IMG/VR virus record: IMGVR_UViG_3300046170_000344
Coordinates: 1-32,745 of that record
Length of the DNA stretch: 32,745 bases
Strand: one strand, 5' to 3'
From: a virus
Part shown: positions 11,930-27,912 of the stretch, in pieces
Position numbering within the stretch: the first letter of the stretch is position 1
Layout of the letters: every line of letters begins with the position of its first letter
The notes under the pieces: generated by a model
The model's database searches: none
Told to the model about the DNA's origin: nothing
Seen by the model: the letters and a program-made list of their open reading frames with translations, nothing else
Program-made: the position numbers and the translations under genes

Positions 11930-11963
11930 TAAAAAAAAAGGTAGGCAGTTTAGCTACCTACCC
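11930..11963 (-). terminator. Intrinsic terminator after major capsid gene
   Basis: On the minus strand GGTAGG...CCTACC (11962-11940) forms a hairpin followed by nine T (11939-11931). It lies about 25 bases after the capsid stop codon. Confidence 0.85.
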
Positions 11964-15590: not shown

Positions 15591-17303
15591 TTAGTTTCCT
15601 AGTGTTGCTTGATTTGCAGTTTTTCTATCTAAAGCCTGTTGGCTACTTACATCTGTACTAACAACATATGCTCTTACTGGTTTTTGTTGTGCTCCTGCTA
15701 TTGTTTGAGCTAGTTGACTTGTTTCTGTAGCTCCTACTACATTAAATGCTGGTGGAGTTGATATTGCAGGTGTTGGTATTGATCCTCCTGTACCACCTTT
15801 AGCATAAGATGGTGGTGTAGGTAATTTTTGATCTCTTATTTTTTTAACATTAGCAAGACCAGCTGCTATAATAGCTGCTCCTCCAATAAATCCAAATACA
15901 CCTCCTTGTTTAAATGCTTTGTCAGCTCCTGCATAAGTGTCTATTATTGCAGATGTAATAGCCAATGCTTTTCCATATTTAGTGTCTTCTCCAACTAAAC
16001 TAGCTATTGCTCCTAATGCACCTGAAACTGCTGCTACTTTAGCATCTGCAATTTCTTTATCTCTTTTATTTTCTCGTGCAGTAGATTCTGCTTGAAATTT
16101 AGCAAGTTCGTTTTCTGCATTAACTCTTTCTTGTGTTCCTACTTTAAAACTATCTATTCTTGTTTGTAAAGTTTTTTCTATCTCTATTCTTTCTGCTGCT
16201 TCTATTTCTTTTAGTTTTTCTAATCTTATTACTTCATTATCTATTAATTCTGCATTTGCTAGTTTAGTTATTTGTGCTACTTCTTGAATTCCTTGTGCTT
16301 CAGAAGTTTTTAAATCTATTAATTCTTTTTCTAATGCTGCTTGGTTTGTTAATTGCTCACTTGTAAGTCCTGTTACTCTTGCCTTAACTGCTGCAAGTTC
16401 ATTTTCAGCTTCTATTAATGCTACTTTTAGATCTATGTTGTCTTCATCTAACGCTAATTCTGCTTCTGCCGCTGCAACAGCTATTTGAGCATTAGTTTCC
16501 ATTAACTCTTGTTGCTCTTTCAATATTCTTGCTAGTTCTTCGTTAGCTACTATTCTTTCCTCTACAGTTAATCTTGTGTCGTCTCTTAATTGTCTTTGTA
16601 TTTCAGCTTGTCTATCATAATCTTCTATTATACCTGCATTTTCTGCTCTTGCTATTTTATTTAAGTTGTTTAGTTTAGTGATTTCTTCTGCTTGGTCGAT
16701 TATTGATGTTGTATATTCTGTTGTTGCTTCTATAACTTCTTTTGTAGTTTCAACAACTTTATCTACCGTGTCATCTACTCCTGTTAGTACATCAACATAT
16801 TCTTTTCCTGCTTCTTTAACAGAATCAAAAGCTCCTTTAAAATCTCCTTCAAATACTTTTACAATAGCTTCACTTAAATAACCTAAAACTTCTAAAGCTG
16901 AATTAAATCTTTCAATAAGATTGTCTTTTATTGCTTTACCTAATGCTTTTAAGTTTTCTACTGGGTTTTCAAATATGTCTTTAAAGAAACCTACTACCGT
17001 TCCTATATTAGATTCTATAAATACAAATAAATCATTAAAAGCTAACTTTAAAGCTGTGGTAGCTGTAGCAAAAGTATCTACTACTTTTTGATTAGAAAAG
17101 AAAGTGTCTTTAAGTGTGTTTAATACTGCATCAAATAATTTTGCTGCTCCAACTCCTTTAAATATAGCGTTTAAACTAAACATTGATTTACCTGCAGCTT
17201 TAGCTCCTTCTTGTATACCTTTAAGACCTACACCTACTGTTTGCAGGTTTTTTTCAGCATCTTTAGCTTTTACATTAATATCTATGTTTATTTCTTGTGC
17301 CAT
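15591..17303 (-). CDS. Tail tape measure protein
   Basis: The 570-aa protein begins MAQEINIDINVKAKDAEKNL, as many tape measures do (INIDVKA...). It has hydrophobic helices near 50-120, a long Glu/Ala/Leu coiled region (about 215-420) and a hydrophobic stretch GFIGGAAIIAAGLANVKKI near 475-495, then a Gly/Pro-rich end. It sets tail length and helps DNA ejection. With the usual about 1.5 angstrom per residue it would give a tail near 85 nm. No lytic domain is visible. Start ATG 17303-17301 overlaps the preceding stop by one base (TAATG). Confidence 0.85.
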   Translation of the reverse strand: MAQEINIDINVKAKDAEKNLQTVGVGLKGIQEGAKAAGKSMFSLNAIFKGVGAAKLFDAVLNTLKDTFFSNQKVVDTFATATTALKLAFNDLFVFIESNIGTVVGFFKDIFENPVENLKALGKAIKDNLIERFNSALEVLGYLSEAIVKVFEGDFKGAFDSVKEAGKEYVDVLTGVDDTVDKVVETTKEVIEATTEYTTSIIDQAEEITKLNNLNKIARAENAGIIEDYDRQAEIQRQLRDDTRLTVEERIVANEELARILKEQQELMETNAQIAVAAAEAELALDEDNIDLKVALIEAENELAAVKARVTGLTSEQLTNQAALEKELIDLKTSEAQGIQEVAQITKLANAELIDNEVIRLEKLKEIEAAERIEIEKTLQTRIDSFKVGTQERVNAENELAKFQAESTARENKRDKEIADAKVAAVSGALGAIASLVGEDTKYGKALAITSAIIDTYAGADKAFKQGGVFGFIGGAAIIAAGLANVKKIRDQKLPTPPSYAKGGTGGSIPTPAISTPPAFNVVGATETSQLAQTIAGAQQKPVRAYVVSTDVSSQQALDRKTANQATLGN

Positions 17304-17443: not shown

Positions 17444-18322
17444 GTTGCTTCTAATACTTGCTTATAATAATAATAACTACAATGCGTTTTTGTTATATCA
17501 AGATTTGTTGGTGGTTTTGATTTCATATAATGAGATTTAACAAAAAGACCTTCATGTTTACTTGTAACTCCTGCATTGTGTAAAATCCTCTTGTCCTCTA
17601 ACATACTCATAGGATCTGTTGCCCATGCAAAGTTTAATTCTTCTGAAATCTCTGTTTTATAACCCTTTTTTCCAAAACTGCCACAAAGTAGCCCACATTT
17701 CAGCTGTCCACGCTTGAATAGGGTATGTTCCTTTGTACAATTCCATGTGATTAACGTTATAGTCTCGCATAGCTCTATAAAGTGCGTTAGAATTGACATA
17801 TACGTCTTTCCAGAATTTACCGTCTGTTCCTGTAAATATCATTTGTGCTCCTCCAGAATCCTCTTGTCTTTCTTTTAATATATTTTTATCAATTTTTGCT
17901 GCATCACACATAATATCTAAAATTTCTTCTCCTTTTGATACTATATAATTATATCCTATGTAAGATTTAGTATTTGACATATAAACTTTGTCAGTTTGGA
18001 ATCTTGGTAAAGGTTTTGTTAAAATAGTATCTGCATCTGCATAATAATACTGTTCACCTTGCGTACAAGAACAACTACCAAAATATTTAGACATTAAATA
18101 AGGTTTTACAGAGGGAGCATATGGTTCAGCTTTATAAGGATAACTATTAAAGTTTACACCTTTATATTTCTCTCTTAATTTAGCAAAACTGTATTCACCT
18201 ATGTCTCCTAGTAAAATAATTATATCGTGAGATTTTACTCCTTGCTTTAAATATGAATGAATCATAGTGTCTATTTGCCATTCATAATATTTCGTTTCTG
18301 GTTGTGCTGATATATATTTCAT
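17437..18322 (-). CDS. Glycosyltransferase-like protein, interrupted by a +1 shift
   Basis: The frame from ATG 18322-18320 gives 221 aa starting MKYISAQPETKYYEWQIDTM, with an acidic DxD-type motif YYYADADTI (D96, D98) in the usual place for a nucleotide-sugar-dependent GT-A enzyme, then PIQAWTAEMWATLWQFWKKGL and a stop at 17659-17657. The continuation EISEELNFAWATDPMSM...HNAGVT...FVKSHYM is in the next frame and ends at 17437. Skipping one base in the A6-G3 run (17671-17663) gives FWKKGYKTEISEELNF, a smooth 294-aa protein. The total length is 3n+1. It could modify virion or host glycans. A donor or acceptor cannot be named. The break may be a sequencing indel. Confidence 0.65.
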
Positions 18323-18498
18323 TATTGTTGCTGACAATCTGGACACGTAGTTGGTCCTGTTAATGTACTTCCATTCCAATAATAATACTCGGTAAAGTCT
18401 GCAGTAAAGTATCTGTTTGTTGATAAAACTGCACTACAAGTATCATCTTGATAAATTATTGTAGCAGATGATATGTCATTTGCGTTCATATAAACTGC
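18322..18498 (-). pseudogene. C-terminal repeat piece of the 1555-aa tail protein in the +1 frame
   Basis: After a one-base skip at AAAA (18502-18499), the frame from 18498 reads AVYMNANDISSATIIYQDD, then CSAVLSTNRYFTADFTEYYYWNGS and TGPTTCPDCQQQ, with its stop at 18324-18322. This completes the third copy of a Cys/Tyr-rich repeat whose first half (CGTQQLYYGISAQTACC) ends the 1555-aa frame. The unshifted frame instead ends in an unrelated SSLYERK. An internal ATG at 18489-18487 could alternatively start a free 55-aa peptide. The TAA overlaps the next ATG (TAATG), as at other junctions in this genome, which favours this frame as the real gene end. Confidence 0.6.
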
Positions 18499-21400
18499 TT
18501 TTAGTTGTAAATGTATCACAACAAGCTGTTTGAGCAGATATACCATAATATAATTGCTGTGTTCCACAAACTACAGTCGTAGTTGTAGTTGTTGTAGTCG
18601 TTGTTATACAAGTTCCAGTTATAATACCATAATCTGTAGGTGTTTGGACAAATGCAGTACCAGATATATCAAAACATTGATTAGGAAATGTACTAATACT
18701 TAAACTAATATCACCTACTTGAAAATCAGAATCTATTTGAACATATACTGCAAATCCATCACTTTGTCTTTCCATTACAAATACATTATCTGGAGCTTGT
18801 GTTGTTGTTGTAGTAGTAGTTGAAGTAGTAGTAGTTCCAGTACAATCTATACATTCATCATATCCTTCATAATCATATTTTGGTTGACCATTTACACAAC
18901 TTTGTCCTAATACCCAGTCAGTGTTTTGGTCTCCTAATGCTGATTGTGGATCTGAATAACATACTCCTGTAGATACATCTTCTATAACTGCTGGGAATCC
19001 TGATGTTGAATCATTACCAACTACTATAGTTGAATCACCACCACATTCTGTATATCTTCTAAACACATCAAGAGCAGGTTTTGTAGGTATAGCATCACAA
19101 GGGTCTGTTGTAGGTTTAGGTGGACAATTTCCATCACCCAACCACACGTTTTCTTGTGGATCATAATATCTATAATTTATTCCATCAGTATAATAACCTG
19201 TTGGTGCATATACTCCTGTTCCTAATGCTGATGGGTCATCATACATATATTCGCTTGTTGTTGCTGTCATTAATGTTTTATTATTATCGAAATAATAATA
19301 ATCAAATACTCTCGAAGCATCATCACAATATTGTGTAGCTGGATTCCATCCTGTTCCTAAATAATATAAACCATTAGCATCAACACAGGTTGTACATACT
19401 CTAAATCCTTCATTAAAGAATCTTCTTTCTGTAGGACTGCTATCTAAAGCATAATATCCAGAAGGTGCTGCTTGTGTACAATCACTATAACTATATACAT
19501 AAGTTGTATTACAGAAATTAGAAACCGTAGGTTGTAAGTCTGCACCTAATACATAATAAAATCCTTTACTTTGTGGGTTTTCACAAACATCACTCTGTGT
19601 TGAGAATCTTAAATAAAATACAGATTTAGTGACCAAACAAGGATCTGTAGTCGTTCCATCATCTGTACAAGTAGAACACCCTATACCTTCTCCATCTCCT
19701 ACTGTAATACCATTTTCTGTTTCCCAATCAAAAGCTGTTGAATTATCACTAGCATACCAACAATTTCCATCAATAGTTACATATGAACCTGTATTTTGGT
19801 TCCCTACAGTTAATGTATCTCTGGTTCTAATGTATCTTGTGTCTAGTGCAACTGATTGACCCGGACATCCTGTTACTTCGTAGTAATTATAAACTATTAA
19901 TCTAATTGTACTATTAGAAAATGTAGTTGTAACTGTCTGACTTGTTGTAAATGTTCCCCCTGCATTATTAACTGTTGGTGGTCCTACTTGCCATTCATAA
20001 CCTGAACGAAGTTGAATAGTTGTATTAAAATTAAATTCTGTTCCTGCATTTTGTGTTAATGTTGCTCCATCTTGAGAACCACTTAAAACATATCCATCTG
20101 TAACAGGTGAATAACCAGAAGCTACAATATTTGAAGTATCTACATCTAAAGTTATTGTAATTAAGTTTTGATCTGTAAAAAATACATCATGTACATCTTG
20201 TGCTGTAACAGTACCATCACTTGCAGTTACTCTATAAGTATAAGTTGCTTCTGAAGATTCATTTGCATCATAATAACTATTTGTTTCTCCTGTTTCATTA
20301 ACAAAAGTTTCACCACCATCAGTTGATCTTGCCCATTGATAACTTGTCGGTGTAAATCCGCTTGCTGTTGTTGTTAATCTAGCATTTGTATTTGTTGTTG
20401 CTTGTGTTGGACCATCTATTGTAATAAAATCTGTTGTTAACTGCACAGCACCTGAAAGAGTGGTATTAACAGTTAAGTTAGAAGTTCCAACAGTTCCCTG
20501 TGCATTTTGTATAGTTGGACCAGTTGTAAATTCATAACCAGAGTTTGCAGTAACCTGTGTATTAAATGAATATGTTTGACCTTCTTCTAACGATAATGTG
20601 TCTCCTGTTTGATTTCCACTAATATTATATCCTGCTGATGCACCATTAATATTATTTACAATATTTAACGTAATTGTGTATTTTTTTGGTGTCCATACTA
20701 CAATATGTGTATCTGCAAAATCTTCATCATCGCTACTATCTATAGCAGTACAAGTATATGTAACATTCCCTGTATCATCATTTGTTATGGTTACACTTTG
20801 TGTTGTTTCACCTTCTGCCTCTCCACCTTCCCATAAATAACTAGCTGTACCTATAAAGTTATTAGGTGTTGCAGTTAAAGTTATATCATCTGTTGTTTGT
20901 CCTGTTGTTGGTCCTTCTATAATAAGGCTTCTACCAACATCACATGTTTTATCAACTGTTGGTGTTGTTCCATCAACTGTACAGAAAGTAGAATCTGCTG
21001 TACACTCTGTACAAATATCTTCATCTATTGTTGTTGTAGTTTCTATAGGAACAGAACCGCCAATAGATACTACAATTTTATTTATTAGTTCTAATTTACT
21101 TCTACCAGTATTAAAATCTGTCTCTATTCCATTTATTGTATAGTTTCTATCCTGTATTGCTATTGTGTCTGCAAGAATAAACTCTTGTAGCATTTTAATA
21201 GGTAAATATGCGTATATAGTTGTAAGTCTTTTATTGTTTTGAAATACTTGTGCTATATAATCCTGATAATAAACTTTAAATAATGTGTCCTCAAATGAAT
21301 TAGTATTTGTGTATTCATTTAATTCGTTTCTAAAGTTTATGTTCTTCTCGCTTTCTATTGAATCTAAATCTAAACTATTAGTAGGTATAATATATTGTGT

Positions 21401-23143
21401 TATATCACTAAAATTTGTACCTGACACATTTGGACTTGCTGCATCTTCTGTAAGAAGAAATCTAATTGGTGTCGCACTTGTTTGATTGTATGCATAAAAC
21501 AACAATGGTTTACCGAAATAAGGATCTGAATTATCATCTACAAACCAACCTACTTGTGGATCTATATTTCCATCAGTTGTAACTAATCTTTCATACTTCA
21601 TGTGCTCAAAAGGTAGAATTATTTGATATGTCTCTGGATTTGCATCATAATAATCATCACCTCTATATTCTTCTGTTGCCCAACTTAAATTAGATAGTTG
21701 TTGGTGTTGTTTTGCAAGCTTTGTATCTAATCCTTCATATTTAAACTCTACTTCTTTATAAGGTAGAGCAACATCTACATTTGATTCTGTTGTGTCTACA
21801 TAATTCGTTATATCCCATACTGTATCGGAATCATTATAATATTCATTTAAAGTCTTTACTATAATAGTTCCGTTTTCTGTATATGCAGTTAAATTGAACA
21901 TTTTGAATATACCAGTTAAAAAGTCTATTACTTTAATCTCTGGTATTTGTTCTGATATAATAAATTCTCTTGTATTATTAAATATATAATTTGTTTCTAA
22001 TGGATATTCTGCTGTATCAAAGTCATCATAACCTCTTTCAATATCCCACTGTGTATTAGTAGTTAGCGTAAATGAGCTTTCTGTTGATGTTATAAATACA
22101 GTATAGGTACCATTACCTAATAATATGTTAGGAAACGATACACTAGTTCCGCTTAATTCTTTTGCTCGGAAAGGTTGTCCATTCTTTTTTATAGTTACAG
22201 TTGCATCTATTGATGTTGCTGCTGTTATAGTTAATGTAGCTCTTAATGCAGAAGTAGCATTTACAATTTCTATTCTATCCCCATAACTTATTACTTGTGA
22301 TATTGCTTGCCCATCATCTATATCAAACCCTGTAACTTGTTTTGTTACTTTTTGCTCTTCATAAGCTTTACCTTTTTTTCTATGTAGCCATAAGTATAAA
22401 CCATAATATGCGTCATTAGTTGTAGAAAAGAAATCTGTACTAAATGTAAGTCCATATTTGTCTTCTATGGCTTTTATAATCGCATCTGCTCTTATAGCAT
22501 ACTTTAGCTCTTCAAAATAAACACCCTGATGATTTGTTCCAGAAGGATGTAAATTACCACCAGCTGCATTTGGATATTCAGTAGTTTCTGACGATTCATA
22601 AAATAATCTTGTTGTATGTGTTACTAATGGAGCAACTACACCTTTAGGATATGTAAGAGTAGAACTATCTGCTCTTGTATAGGTTTTTGATATTCCACCT
22701 TGTAGTGCTGACTTTACTGTAGCAGCATCATAATCTGTATCAAATGCAGTTAAGTCTAATGCACTTAAATCATCATCTCCTATTAGGTCATTTAAATCTA
22801 TTGTGTTACCAAAGAATGTTATTCTATATACATTTGGTTCACCATCTTTTAGATCTACTCCATTTAATTTTATTTTTCCTGTTTTAAATGGTCTACTATT
22901 TAATTCTATTATTGAATCTTTTTTTAATCTTGCATCAAAGCCATCAGAAATAGAATAATTATAGTAATGTTCAAATATCTTATTATTAGTTTTAGAAGCT
23001 GGAATATTAAATGTTCTAGTAAAATCAATAAATATTCTAGATATGTCTTTAACATTCTGAATTGATTGAACAATGTTTACTGATTCATCATCAAACAAAT
23101 CTACTCTTGTTCCCTCTATGTATAACTGTAAATAAGCTTTCAT
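18476..23143 (-). CDS. Large modular tail-tip/adhesin protein (1555 aa)
   Basis: The first about 700 residues (MKAYLQLYIEGTRVDLFDDE, ISRIFIDFTRTFNIPASKTN, PFKTGKIKLNGVDLKDGEP) look like the Bacteroidota phage tail-tip/baseplate hub type I recall. They are followed by a linker with Cys pairs (DEDICTECTADSTFC). About residues 740-1080 hold two copies of an Ig-like plus beta-repeat unit. Residues about 1170-1340 hold two Cys/Tyr-rich repeats, and Thr-runs near 1440 and 1520 act as flexible stalks before a third, frame-broken repeat. The architecture is that of an adhesin displayed at the tail tip. Host-binding is inference; the modules are visible in the sequence. Confidence 0.75.
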   Translation of the reverse strand: MKAYLQLYIEGTRVDLFDDESVNIVQSIQNVKDISRIFIDFTRTFNIPASKTNNKIFEHYYNYSISDGFDARLKKDSIIELNSRPFKTGKIKLNGVDLKDGEPNVYRITFFGNTIDLNDLIGDDDLSALDLTAFDTDYDAATVKSALQGGISKTYTRADSSTLTYPKGVVAPLVTHTTRLFYESSETTEYPNAAGGNLHPSGTNHQGVYFEELKYAIRADAIIKAIEDKYGLTFSTDFFSTTNDAYYGLYLWLHRKKGKAYEEQKVTKQVTGFDIDDGQAISQVISYGDRIEIVNATSALRATLTITAATSIDATVTIKKNGQPFRAKELSGTSVSFPNILLGNGTYTVFITSTESSFTLTTNTQWDIERGYDDFDTAEYPLETNYIFNNTREFIISEQIPEIKVIDFLTGIFKMFNLTAYTENGTIIVKTLNEYYNDSDTVWDITNYVDTTESNVDVALPYKEVEFKYEGLDTKLAKQHQQLSNLSWATEEYRGDDYYDANPETYQIILPFEHMKYERLVTTDGNIDPQVGWFVDDNSDPYFGKPLLFYAYNQTSATPIRFLLTEDAASPNVSGTNFSDITQYIIPTNSLDLDSIESEKNINFRNELNEYTNTNSFEDTLFKVYYQDYIAQVFQNNKRLTTIYAYLPIKMLQEFILADTIAIQDRNYTINGIETDFNTGRSKLELINKIVVSIGGSVPIETTTTIDEDICTECTADSTFCTVDGTTPTVDKTCDVGRSLIIEGPTTGQTTDDITLTATPNNFIGTASYLWEGGEAEGETTQSVTITNDDTGNVTYTCTAIDSSDDEDFADTHIVVWTPKKYTITLNIVNNINGASAGYNISGNQTGDTLSLEEGQTYSFNTQVTANSGYEFTTGPTIQNAQGTVGTSNLTVNTTLSGAVQLTTDFITIDGPTQATTNTNARLTTTASGFTPTSYQWARSTDGGETFVNETGETNSYYDANESSEATYTYRVTASDGTVTAQDVHDVFFTDQNLITITLDVDTSNIVASGYSPVTDGYVLSGSQDGATLTQNAGTEFNFNTTIQLRSGYEWQVGPPTVNNAGGTFTTSQTVTTTFSNSTIRLIVYNYYEVTGCPGQSVALDTRYIRTRDTLTVGNQNTGSYVTIDGNCWYASDNSTAFDWETENGITVGDGEGIGCSTCTDDGTTTDPCLVTKSVFYLRFSTQSDVCENPQSKGFYYVLGADLQPTVSNFCNTTYVYSYSDCTQAAPSGYYALDSSPTERRFFNEGFRVCTTCVDANGLYYLGTGWNPATQYCDDASRVFDYYYFDNNKTLMTATTSEYMYDDPSALGTGVYAPTGYYTDGINYRYYDPQENVWLGDGNCPPKPTTDPCDAIPTKPALDVFRRYTECGGDSTIVVGNDSTSGFPAVIEDVSTGVCYSDPQSALGDQNTDWVLGQSCVNGQPKYDYEGYDECIDCTGTTTTSTTTTTTTQAPDNVFVMERQSDGFAVYVQIDSDFQVGDISLSISTFPNQCFDISGTAFVQTPTDYGIITGTCITTTTTTTTTTVVCGTQQLYYGISAQTACCDTFTTKSSLYERK
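19120..19635 (-). repeat. Cys/Tyr-rich repeats 1 and 2 in the tail adhesin
   Basis: Protein-level repeats of about 80 residues. Copy 1 (about 1170-1250) has VFYLRFSTQSDVC, VYSYSDC, PSGYYAL and CTTC. Copy 2 (about 1258-1340) has LYYLGTGWNPATQYC, VFDYYYFD, PTGYYTDGINYRYYD and GDGNC. Copy 3 overlaps the frame break at 18500. Shared plan: aromatic strand, CC/C pair, second strand, GYY turn, final Cys. Confidence 0.7.
19910..20930 (-). repeat. Duplicated Ig-like plus beta-repeat unit (two copies of about 170 aa)
   Basis: Unit 1 starts IIEGPTTGQTTDDITLTATP near residue 740 and continues with ITLNIVNN...GYNISGNQTGDTL, ANSGYEFTTGP and NAQGTVGTSN. Unit 2 starts ITIDGPTQATTNTNARL near 908 and continues with ITLDVDTSN...GYVLSGSQDGATL, LRSGYEWQVGP and NAGGTFTTSQ. 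Order and spacing agree, so this is an internal tandem duplication that has since diverged. Confidence 0.75.
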
Positions 23144-24082: not shown

Positions 24083-24613
24083 CTATTGTTTTATTGTGTA
24101 TTCTAAAAATTCTTCTACGTCTAATCCATAAGCTTTTCTTAAATCTTCTGGTAATCTCTTAAATCCTTTTTCAAAAGGTTTAGTAAAAAATAAACTTGCT
24201 TTTATTCCTTTATTCCATACAGATCGTGATATTATATAAGCTGTAGATTCATAACTTGTAAATCTACCTTTTGCATCTCTAAATTGAAATCTTTTTGCTT
24301 CTATCCATTTCTTTATTCCTCCAGATAGTCCACCTTTCTTTCCAGTTCCTGTACCAAACTTAAATGGACTTTTAGTAGATTCTGGATATGTACTTGTTGC
24401 TCCTTTTACACCTTCATCTTGGAACTTACCATAATCTTCCATCATAAATTTTAAGCTGAAAGAATTAGGTCCTACATCTATTATGCCTTTTAGAGAATTA
24501 TAGAGTTGTTTAGAAACATTCTTATTCTTTCTAGTTAGATTAGCTCTAGACTGTTGGATTACATAATCTTTAAATGCTTCTAATGCTTTTCTTGTATTCT
24601 CGTTGTTTAGCAT
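24083..24613 (-). CDS. Neck / tail-completion protein (HK97 gp10-like)
   Basis: The 176-aa protein has an N-terminal helix (TRKALEAFKDYVIQQS), then YGKFQDEGVKGATSTYPES, SPFKFGTGTGKKGGLSGGIKKWIE, FRDAKGRFTSYESTAYIISRSVWNKG and SLFFTKPFEKGFKRLPEDL. This is the general pattern of head-tail joining proteins of the HK97 gp10 type, which are expected between terminase and tail genes. It overlaps the upstream gene by 7 bases. Assignment is by pattern and gene order. Confidence 0.7.
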   Translation of the reverse strand: MLNNENTRKALEAFKDYVIQQSRANLTRKNKNVSKQLYNSLKGIIDVGPNSFSLKFMMEDYGKFQDEGVKGATSTYPESTKSPFKFGTGTGKKGGLSGGIKKWIEAKRFQFRDAKGRFTSYESTAYIISRSVWNKGIKASLFFTKPFEKGFKRLPEDLRKAYGLDVEEFLEYTIKQ

Positions 24614-25062
24614 ATCGTCATATCATTTTGAATTTGTACATCAAATGTTGCTACCCATCCTGCTAGCTTATTTTCAAATCTATCTGTAAAAGGCTCACAT
24701 GTAACATCAGCTTCGACTTGGTATTTGTCTGTATATAAATCTCCTCTTTGTAATAATGCTACTAATCTATCAAGTACACCTAGTTGTGTGTTTAATACAT
24801 CTTGCTCATTGTCATTACCTAAAAATAAGTCTGTTGTTTCTTCTTTGTTTATATCAACTACATCCATACACATAACAGAAATATTAAAGGTTAATACTTT
24901 TGAGTTAATAGTACATTGATTTACCATTACATGAGATAAAGGAAATATAGTTTGTTTGTCAAGATCTACATTATCAAAGCTTCCATAAGAAACAGTATTT
25001 ACAAAAGGCTCTGCTTCTAATGTTTCTTTTATCTTGTTTGTTATGTTATAAAATCCTGTCAT
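24607..25062 (-). CDS. Tail terminator-like protein (151 aa)
   Basis: The product starts MTGFYNITNKIKETLEAEPF and contains IFPLSHVMVNQCTIN, FNISVMCMDVVD, LGNDNEQDVLNTQLGVLDRL and the end WVATFDVQIQNDMTIC. I recall this as a frequent Bacteroidota phage gene. Its alpha/beta plan, size and place just before the gp10-like gene are like tail terminator (gpU-type) proteins. Its ATG overlaps the stop of the -1 frame of the chaperone gene (ATGA), so translation is likely coupled to the frameshift product. Confidence 0.65.
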   Translation of the reverse strand: MTGFYNITNKIKETLEAEPFVNTVSYGSFDNVDLDKQTIFPLSHVMVNQCTINSKVLTFNISVMCMDVVDINKEETTDLFLGNDNEQDVLNTQLGVLDRLVALLQRGDLYTDKYQVEADVTCEPFTDRFENKLAGWVATFDVQIQNDMTIC

Positions 25063-25807
25063 ATAGTTTTTTGTTTAATTAATCTTTTTTCTGCTTCTGC
25101 TTTGTCTTGTTCATATGCTAAATAAAATAATGCTTCATGCATGTTTAGTTCACTGACAGATTCAATTTTGGTTGCATCTCCTCCAGCCAATTTATGTAAC
25201 GAGCTATACCAGCCCCACTTCCTAGCAAATCCTCTCTCTGCTGAATAGTCATTCCCTTCATAACCTCCTGATTCAAAGATTTCAGGATAGTTTTCAACAA
25301 CTCGTTCTTTAAATTGTAAAAAAAAAGTATAGAACCCATTACAATATCAAGAGGCATCTGTTTATATTTTTCAGAATCTTCTGATCCTTTATAGTCTTCT
25401 ATGATGTATTTGTCTTTTAGTGTGTCTTTTATTGGTCTGTATAATACCGCCATAGCTTTGTGCATGTTGCTCCAGTCTCCTAGTGTAGTATCAAGATCTA
25501 TATATTCTCCTAAAGTTATTTTGTCTAAATCTGGAACAAAGCCATAAGCTATTCCATCCATTGTAAAAGTAGGTACAAGTTTAGCCTCTTTATTAAATAA
25601 GTCATTAATGATTCTTACAACTTCCATTACACTATTAAACTGTACTTTAATAACATTCTGAAGATTAAGATTACAGAAGATTTCTACTGTCTTGTGTAAT
25701 AAGAAATTAGAGTTTTGATTAGCCTCTGTGTTTATCTTTTCATACTTCTGGTATTGCTCTAAACTAATCTCTCTTAAAGATTCTGGAACTTGTATCTTAA
25801 CTTTCAT
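25059..25807 (-). CDS. Tail assembly chaperone, -1 frameshift product (gpGT-like, 249 aa)
   Basis: Residues 1-163 are read in the zero frame to GSILFF at the T9 run (25326-25318). A -1 shift continues with LQFKERVVENYPEIFESGG, YSAERGFARKWGWYSSLHKL, DATKIESVSELNMHEALFYL and ends KRLIKQKTI at 25059. The -1 frame is open for 86 codons. Its KWGWY...LAGGD...LN.HEAL.YLA pattern is one I recall from Bacteroidota phage tail genes. The stop overlaps the next ATG (ATGA). Together this resembles lambda gpG-gpGT, in which a rare frameshift adds a C-terminal T domain that recruits the tail tube while G coats the tape measure. The mechanism is inferred. An alternative is a one-base sequencing deletion in the homopolymer. 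Confidence 0.72.
25145..25807 (-). CDS. Tail assembly chaperone, zero-frame product (gpG-like, 220 aa)
   Basis: The unshifted frame starts MKVKIQVPESLREISLEQYQ and runs past the T9 site for 57 more codons: YNLKNELLKTILKSL, then QREDLLGSGAGIARYINWL and the end KLNLSVN. That tail is helical and protein-like, and I recall similar ends (helix, GDGI-type turn, helix) in related phage proteins, so the region seems to encode protein in two frames. The middle (ITLGEYIDLDTTLGDWSNMH, KAMAVLYRPI) is a conserved-looking segment. It is the first tail gene after the terminator and has the perfect leader box. Function as G-type chaperone is inferred from size, position and the frameshift layout. Confidence 0.68.
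   Translation of the reverse strand: MKVKIQVPESLREISLEQYQKYEKINTEANQNSNFLLHKTVEIFCNLNLQNVIKVQFNSVMEVVRIINDLFNKEAKLVPTFTMDGIAYGFVPDLDKITLGEYIDLDTTLGDWSNMHKAMAVLYRPIKDTLKDKYIIEDYKGSEDSEKYKQMPLDIVMGSILFFYNLKNELLKTILKSLNQEVMKGMTIQQREDLLGSGAGIARYINWLEEMQPKLNLSVN
25318..25327 (-). other. Candidate -1 slippery site, C-T9
   Basis: Minus strand ATA CTT TTT TTT TAC: a run of nine T in which T TTT TTT (25325-25319) is a standard -1 heptamer in the correct phase. Both tRNAs can re-pair fully after slipping one base. I did not identify a clear stimulatory hairpin downstream. Confidence 0.65.
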
Positions 25808-26739: not shown

Positions 26740-27912
26740 TTACCAAATGTGATATTCTCCTTTATTAGGATCTTGTAATTGTGAGGTTAATGCATATCTA
26801 GCTGCATCAATACTATGGTCTCCAGACATAGGGTTAGGCTTTTGTAGTGTGTTACCTTGCTTGTCTTTCATCCAGACATAACCCTGAAGCTCTTTAATTA
26901 AGTTCTTTGATCTTTGTGTAACAAATATATTGTTTTGGTTTATAAGGTTAATACCATACACTATACTATCTCTGCCTTTTGTAACTGGGAATACTTGATG
27001 TCCATATGTATTTAACTCTGCTATTGATTTAGGCTCTGCACTATCTGCCCATAAGCTTCCTAGTATCTGATTGTTTTTTAAGTATTGACTTATGTGTGAG
27101 TTTAACATTCCTTTTCTATAGAGTACTTCATCAAATATATATGCATCATCTAGTTTGTATAGTGCTACTAATGCTGCTTCGTCAACGGAGTAACCAAAGT
27201 CTAATCCATGACATAATAACCTAGCATGAGGTGGTATTACATCTATTTGTTTCCAATCAGGAATACAAGCTCCTTCAAGTGTTCCTATCTCACCTAGTCC
27301 ATAAACTCTCCACCAATTAGCCCAATAAGAGCTTTTAGAAGCCTTTAGACGAGCTTTCTCTATTTCTTTGATAATACTATCAGGAAGTTCATTATTGTCC
27401 TTGTAAGTTAATGTAATGAAGTTTGTATCTTCTGTATTGATTAATTCTTTATCTACCCAGAATAAATTAGTAGGGTTATAATCTAGCCAAATATCTCCAG
27501 AGGTTCTTATTGATAATTGCTGGTAAGCTTCAAAGCTAACATTGTTACACTCATTAATAAATAGATCTGTTCTTCTGGAACCTCTTAACTTATCTGGTTG
27601 GTCTGTAGAAAAGAACTCTATATAACTTCCATTAGAGAATGTGTATTTTAATGTTGTTCTATTATACTTCTCTTCGTAATATCTGTTTAATCCTTTTAGG
27701 ATATTTAGAAAGTCTTTTAATGCTCCTCTTCTTAAATGTGGAACTGATTCAGATACTACACTTATCTCGCTGCCTGCATTTCTTATTGCCTGATCTATTA
27801 AGATAGATAGTATACAAATAGTTTTACCAGCAGAAGTTCCTCCTCTTACAATCTTAACTCTTTTGTCTAGTGCAAGAAGCTTGTCAAACGCTATCGTTTT
27901 TCTGACTCTCAT
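26740..27912 (-). CDS. terL: Terminase large subunit
   Basis: The 390-aa protein has all motor and nuclease motifs. Walker A is RGGTSAGKT at 23-31 and Walker B with catalytic Glu is DLFINE at 116-121. The RNase H-like nuclease acidic residues are D238 (HGLDFGY), D290 (WADSAEPK) and D365/D369 (DHSIDAARYAL). It packages DNA into the prohead through the portal and cuts concatemers. Length fits compact pbsx/phage_terminase_3-type enzymes. ATG overlaps the small subunit stop by one base (TAATG). Confidence 0.95.
   Translation of the reverse strand: MRVRKTIAFDKLLALDKRVKIVRGGTSAGKTICILSILIDQAIRNAGSEISVVSESVPHLRRGALKDFLNILKGLNRYYEEKYNRTTLKYTFSNGSYIEFFSTDQPDKLRGSRRTDLFINECNNVSFEAYQQLSIRTSGDIWLDYNPTNLFWVDKELINTEDTNFITLTYKDNNELPDSIIKEIEKARLKASKSSYWANWWRVYGLGEIGTLEGACIPDWKQIDVIPPHARLLCHGLDFGYSVDEAALVALYKLDDAYIFDEVLYRKGMLNSHISQYLKNNQILGSLWADSAEPKSIAELNTYGHQVFPVTKGRDSIVYGINLINQNNIFVTQRSKNLIKELQGYVWMKDKQGNTLQKPNPMSGDHSIDAARYALTSQLQDPNKGEYHIW

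Follow-up and report, generated by a model that had tools for sequence, protein, structure and literature searches.

A single gene on the minus strand of a 32,745-base IMG/VR virus record, analysed here over its full length (the window), appears to specify two tail assembly chaperone isoforms from one start codon through a programmed change of frame where at least nine thymines stand in an unbroken row; the probability of this reading is put at about 0.8. The majority of readings would pass straight through the run to give a gpG-like protein of 220 aa, i.e. a head and a 57-residue zero-frame tail, and a minority would move into the -1 frame there to give a gpGT-like protein of about 249 aa, i.e. 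the head and an 86-residue tail that ends at an ATGA. Both tails are functional, which makes about 57 codons dual-coding in the full sense. If the parts work as in lambda, the tape measure protein would be the binding partner of the head, and tail tube subunits would be brought in by the -1 tail. The switch itself would more probably than not come about by addition of an extra U by RNA polymerase on the T9 stretch, the main alternative being ribosomal -1 slippage on the U_UUU_UUU that the stretch contains. We infer the slippage, its level and the isoform ratio, as well as the chaperone function, from the gene comparisons that follow.

The zero-frame ORF (25145..25807, minus strand, as are all genes and gene features described below) starts with the ATG at 25807, runs for 220 codons ending KLNLSVN and terminates with the stop at 25147-25145; it would encode the short isoform of the putative chaperone and matches a protein family of unknown function (phrog_32199, E 2.8e-19), which is likewise matched by 60 of 60 homologues. 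Nine Ts lie on the coding strand at 25326-25318, within codons 160-164 (ATA CTT TTT TTT TAC), and this candidate slip site, CTT TTT TTT TAC (25318..25326), holds an in-phase T_TTT_TTT; at least nine Ts are present there in 274 of 274 distinct homologues. Upstream of it, codons 1-163 (25319..25807) form the head domain shared by the two isoforms, as indicated by AlphaFold2 pLDDT and by the substitution pattern. The -1 frame is already open upstream of the run and continues uninterrupted across it to 25059, contributing after the T9 a further 86 codons (25062..25319; LQFKERVV...KWGWY...LAYEQDK...KQKTI), the presumed C-terminal domain of the long isoform, that are found in all 274 homologues. The -1 stop (25061-25059) is the TGA inside an ATGA (25059..25062) whose ATG, at 25062, begins the next gene, and an ATGA occurs here in 140 of 154 homologues. 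Zero-frame codons 164-220 (25148..25318) are thus the 57 codons read in two frames, and both a two-frame substitution test and a simulation of frame openness mark this stretch as dual-coded. The gene had previously been described by a sequence-only reading made without database searches, whose 220 zero-frame codons, 86 further -1 codons and stop overlapping the next ATG are all correct, the minus strand being the only item left unstated.

Homologues were collected initially by a scan with the zero-frame protein that yielded 80 viral contigs, with T9 or T10 at the same codon in all 79 complete ones, and alignment-based searches with each frame then widened the set to 154 and finally to 274 distinct sequences, or 119 groups at an 80% nucleotide identity cut. 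The set takes in three contigs filed under Bacteroidetes genome bins together with the cultured Nonlabens phage P12024L; the family is one of phages infecting marine Bacteroidetes. Since the peptide search patterns came from elsewhere in the proteins and excluded the slip site, the T run was not selected for by the search. Alignment of both frames with homologues had been proposed by the sequence-only reading, and it shows the passage from a zero-frame head to a -1 frame tail at the T run to be universal (274/274), with no homologue in the set having a single continuous frame and no T run. The run is a T9 in 231 homologues, a T10 in 42 and a T12 in one; none of the 274 distinct sequences has a T7 or T8 at the slip site. 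In 0-based gene positions from the ATG, anchored on the nearly invariant Leu166, the run occupies 481-489 in 226 homologues (three more that are unanchored share the same VFFY reading), 480-489 in 32 and 478-487 in nine, with single instances of 481-490, 479-487, 480-488 and 478-489. The run thus shifts among seven registers yet always keeps at least nine Ts, and in each of these registers an in-phase T_TTT_TTT is present. Where the last Phe codon of the heptamer has become TTC or TTG, as in ten homologues, the run begins further upstream so that nine or ten Ts are left; an undisplaced TTC at that codon is seen in none of the 274.

Dual coding of the overlap was examined by a substitution test in 54 non-overlapping sister pairs, with a repeat in 29 independent new pairs from the distant searches, in which substitutions were classed by their effect in each frame and divided by the supply expected from the third-position spectrum. 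By zero-frame codon position the substitution rates in the 54 pairs are 0.053/0.028/0.198 in the head, where position 3 is dominant, 0.036/0.076/0.075 in the overlap, and 0.024/0.102/0.044 past the zero-frame stop. Relative to mutation supply, doubly synonymous changes in the overlap occur at 0.62 (the head synonymous rate is 0.64), changes nonsynonymous in the zero frame only at 0.25, in the -1 frame only at 0.20, and in both frames at 0.10. Within fixed -1 classes zero-frame synonymous changes are enriched 1.9-2.5x (p 6e-9 and 3e-4), and the corresponding -1 frame enrichment is 2.4-3.2x (p 1e-16 and 8e-6); the 29 independent pairs yield the same outcome for both frames, with zero-frame enrichments of 1.3 and 3.2x (p 0.02 and 1e-4). 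No enrichment is seen in the control frames, namely the -1 frame in the head, the zero frame past its stop and the third frame in the overlap. Purifying selection acting on both frames and absent from the controls shows that the dual coding is real, and the normal rate of change at doubly silent sites makes RNA structure an unlikely cause of the pattern. Along the overlap, the middle third gives the weakest zero-frame signal. The suggestion from sequence inspection that both frames are real protein over some 57 codons is therefore upheld, with replication.

Against these results two deflationary explanations of the frame change can be set. The T9 could stem from a sequencing or assembly error, or mark a frameshifted pseudogene; homopolymers are indeed error-prone, but the same transition recurs in 274 of 274 distinct sequences, in seven registers and in one cultured phage pair, so that this account has a negligible probability. 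An independent metagenome contig whose protein is 100% identical also has the T9, and an assembly error as the source of the frame change is in practice excluded. Of the A or T runs of eight or more in the window, moreover, the T9 alone lies in an ORF and the remaining four are intergenic. Three intergenic runs of nine bases lie at 1607-1615, 2346-2354 and 11931-11939; those at 1607-1615 and 11931-11939 read T9 on the coding strand and are possible terminators.

The other explanation holds that only the -1 frame matters past the run and that the zero tail is a shadow left open by chance. In keeping with this, AlphaFold2 models the zero tail poorly, the zero tail is short in the P12024L lineage, and the best-conserved zero-frame motif, GxGI, is the zero-frame reading of the -1 motif KWGWY; conservation of GxGI was for that reason rejected as proof of a zero-frame domain and the substitution test was used for the zero frame instead. 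A shadow should not, however, show the zero-frame synonymous enrichment found in the 54 pairs and again in the 29, with none in the control frames. Simulations that kept the -1 protein alone give a median probability of zero-frame openness of roughly half a percent per lineage (range 0 to 19%), which also speaks against chance. The zero frame is open in 62 of 62 groups tested (log10 product about -142, the groups being not fully independent), and the third frame has 2-13 stops in the dual-coded stretch. It is accordingly quite improbable that the zero tail is a mere shadow, and the dual-coding reading is retained.

Overlap length was seen by the sequence-only reading as unusual, and rightly so: the overlap is about 171 nt here, as compared to an average of 26-36 nt from slip site to stop in published chaperone sets (PMC10885494). 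Most homologues have overlaps of 51-88 codons. In the lineage of Nonlabens phage P12024L only 16-25 codons follow the run in the zero frame, so that a long zero tail is not universal, and since another lineage has 84-88 codons the zero tail must have varied in length during evolution. The latter lineage is a clade of eight contigs (L338, L341, L346, L347, L352, L370, L380 and L383) in which the zero tail is nearly coextensive with the -1 tail, giving an even longer dual-coded region.

The chaperone candidate is located in a tail morphogenesis gene cluster. The next gene (24607..25062, 151 aa) encodes a tail terminator by its fold: an AlphaFold2 model (pLDDT 80) compared with the PDB by Foldseek matches R4C, NF5, lambda gpU, T5 p142 and Mu at E 2e-5 to 1e-3, and the best 30 PDB matches are tail terminators and neck or connector proteins. 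The assignment of this neighbor, originally made by eye, is thereby borne out. Following it is a gene for a possible neck or tail-completion protein (24083..24613, 176 aa, phrog_29822), of whose relatives 2 of 36 weakly match phrog_5 "tail completion or Neck1" (best E 0.0024). Its start overlaps the end of the terminator gene (24607-24613), and start-stop overlaps thus chain the -1 product, the tail terminator and the following gene. As the ATGA is reached by the frameshifted reading alone, slippage may also feed translation of the tail terminator. Upstream of the chaperone gene lies that of the terminase large subunit (26740..27912; phrog_2, E 1.3e-33), which also matches TIGR01547 at E 2.9e-25, below the cut-off of that model. 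A lambda-like layout had been suggested for the region, but the order is not that of lambda: the gene has the terminase large subunit gene on one side and the tail terminator gene on the other, and the probable tape measure gene (15591..17303, 570 aa) is not adjacent and lies about 8 kb downstream. The latter protein is coiled-coil-rich and matches phrog_21537 "virion structural protein" (E 3.1e-20), and its assignment comes from reading the sequence. A gene for a 1555-aa protein (18476-23143), with a PKD-like stretch, a Cys-rich part and poly-Thr stretches near the C-terminus, was considered as tape measure and dropped, given its PKD-like and Thr/Cys-rich parts and the better fit of the 570-aa gene; more distant relatives have genes of about 500 and 330 aa at this position instead. 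A further tail-cluster protein of 240 aa (17657-18379) has a glycosyltransferase-like YYYADADTIL motif and belongs to a family of unknown function (phrog_4417, E 7e-47).

With its two predicted C-termini from a -1 shift and its place in the tail cluster, the gene is probably a tail assembly chaperone of the lambda gpG/gpGT type. AlphaFold2 models the head at pLDDT of about 75-91 to about residue 160 and the zero tail mostly under 50. Foldseek matches the homologue of phage P12024S at E 4e-15 and, weakly, the "Tail assembly chaperone protein" of phage ctCpR1 (E 0.013, prob 1.00), and the viral structure matches are mostly to unnamed proteins. Searches of Pfam, NCBIfam and PDB sequences returned no match naming the protein as a chaperone, and comparisons with the PDB by Foldseek and VIA-align yielded no credible match, a result with which known chaperone folds are still compatible. 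Flavobacterium phage 6H gp10, matched by Foldseek at E 1e-3, was set aside as a relative on account of a T_TTT_TTC and frame breaks, with confusing frames at its end. This gene (10352-10927 in contig L229) may be a distant chaperone, with a frameshifted extension perhaps concealed in the ~300 nt that separate it from the next gene. Were the candidate instead a virion protein or a head-tail joining protein with two isoforms, this would account for the lack of a curated family that names it and for its position beside the tail terminator, not beside the tape measure gene. This alternative is nevertheless unlikely, since a -1 extension of a roughly 200-aa tail-cluster protein is the known tail chaperone pattern, and the fold match to an annotated chaperone, although weak, points the same way.

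As to how the frame would be changed, slippage by RNA polymerase is, to judge from the genes, somewhat favored over slippage by the ribosome. A minimum of nine Ts equals the length of the 9-base RNA:DNA hybrid. A conserved, unbroken A/T run of at least nine at the frame change, the mark of transcriptional slippage, is present in 274 of 274 homologues, and it also speaks for polymerase that no other ORF of the window contains an A or T run of eight or more. Slippage on nine A or T is documented (PMC5009743), and insertions at A/T runs climb exponentially with length up to nine and are mostly of one nucleotide, which would result in the -1 frame (PMC5574713). The sequence-only reading had proposed a classic lambda-type programmed frameshift; its -1 anatomy stands, whereas for the level of the slip transcriptional slippage fits the rule of nine or more Ts at least as well as the ribosome.

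Ribosomal -1 frameshifting, i.e. tandem slippage of tRNA-Phe on the in-phase U_UUU_UUU of faithful transcripts as in lambda GT, is a less probable but serious competitor. The mechanism is the established one for tail chaperones (PMC5009743), other phage chaperone frameshift genes gave 6-7% when tested in E. coli (PMC3711429), and a heptamer of the required X_XXY_YYZ form, T_TTT_TTT, is in phase in every register. An in-phase T7 or T8 would suffice for the ribosome, yet 0 of 274 homologues have one. If the last Phe codon went from TTT to TTC, neither protein would change and T_TTT_TTC would remain, yet where this is seen the run is displaced upstream instead; a T is kept at this site in 62 of 62 groups of the first set, for which codon usage gives a chance of about 1e-6 if the groups are independent. 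The two flanking Ts can be explained in part by coding (residues 161-164, with V/L/I/F161 and Y/W164). U_UUU_UUU is a weak shift site in E. coli, far less shifty than A_AAA_AAG (PMC5009743), though what holds for the ribosomes and polymerases of E. coli may not hold for those of Bacteroidetes. Conserved stimulators of the kind that would assist a ribosome are not apparent: downstream of the run, an assessment of stem-loop folding gives a mean z of -0.23 over 27 sequences and no consistent signal, and upstream of it there is no loss of synonymous variation. Because every T9 holds an in-phase U_UUU_UUU, the length rule is favored rather than proven, and the comparative data are compatible with the ribosome.

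In the +1 frame a stop, TAA or TAG, occurs three codons past the run in 153 of 154 homologues and at codon 4 in one (TAA at 25309..25311 in the window). It would end +1-frame slippage products at once, and it may either guard against products of deletion or simply result from the two codings; as Leu166 in the zero frame together with Phe-Lys in the -1 frame can produce it, it was not counted in favor of polymerase slippage. Returning to that preferred mechanism, there is perhaps an even chance that a fixed stretch of nine or more Ts, by making the polymerase slip, sets the isoform ratio, while each isoform has a C-terminal domain of its own from the same ~57 codons and the two domains co-evolve in two frames.

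Two-isoform tail chaperones are themselves well known. The gene resembles lambda gpG/gpGT (Xu, Hendrix and Duda 2004; PMC5009743) in having one start, two predicted isoforms, a longer -1 extension and a tail cluster location. It differs in that a T9-T12 run takes the place of the G/A heptamer of lambda, in that about 57 codons are dual-coded with both readings under selection as compared to about ten in lambda, in its placement between terminase and tail terminator and away from the tape measure gene, and in the lack of detectable sequence similarity. Thermus dnaX and Shigella mxiE/spa, which undergo transcriptional slippage on ~9 A or T (reviewed in PMC5009743; primary papers cited in PMC3711429), are alike in their bare coding homopolymer of about nine and alternative C-termini; the present case is unlike them in being a phage tail gene with a long dual-coded overlap, and here the slippage is an interpretation of gene structure. 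The true homologue among cultured phages is gp40/gp41 of Nonlabens phage P12024L (NC_018272), with its P12024S counterpart, in which the head is about 30% identical, the T9 lies in ATA CTT TTT TTT TAT and the same -1 tail with KWGWY follows, whereas the zero tail has only 25 codons. In the P12024L record (NC_018272.1) gp40 and gp41 stand as separate hypothetical proteins and no frameshift is mentioned, despite the T9 frame change, and this annotation could be corrected. A literature search, extending to little of the subscription literature, found no paper that treats this family, a chaperone with a T run or polymerase slippage in the gene of a tail chaperone.

Frameshifting in tail chaperones is the textbook ribosomal case, and this family points instead to run length, not a heptamer with stimulators, as the feature that evolution protects. 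Gene callers overlook the -1 extension, so that in the only isolates the product appears as two hypothetical proteins. The 274 sequences constitute a deep natural data set for measuring selection on both frames of a dual-coded region. With this family, the question of polymerase or ribosome can also be put to a direct test in a gene for phage morphogenesis, as was done earlier for dnaX.
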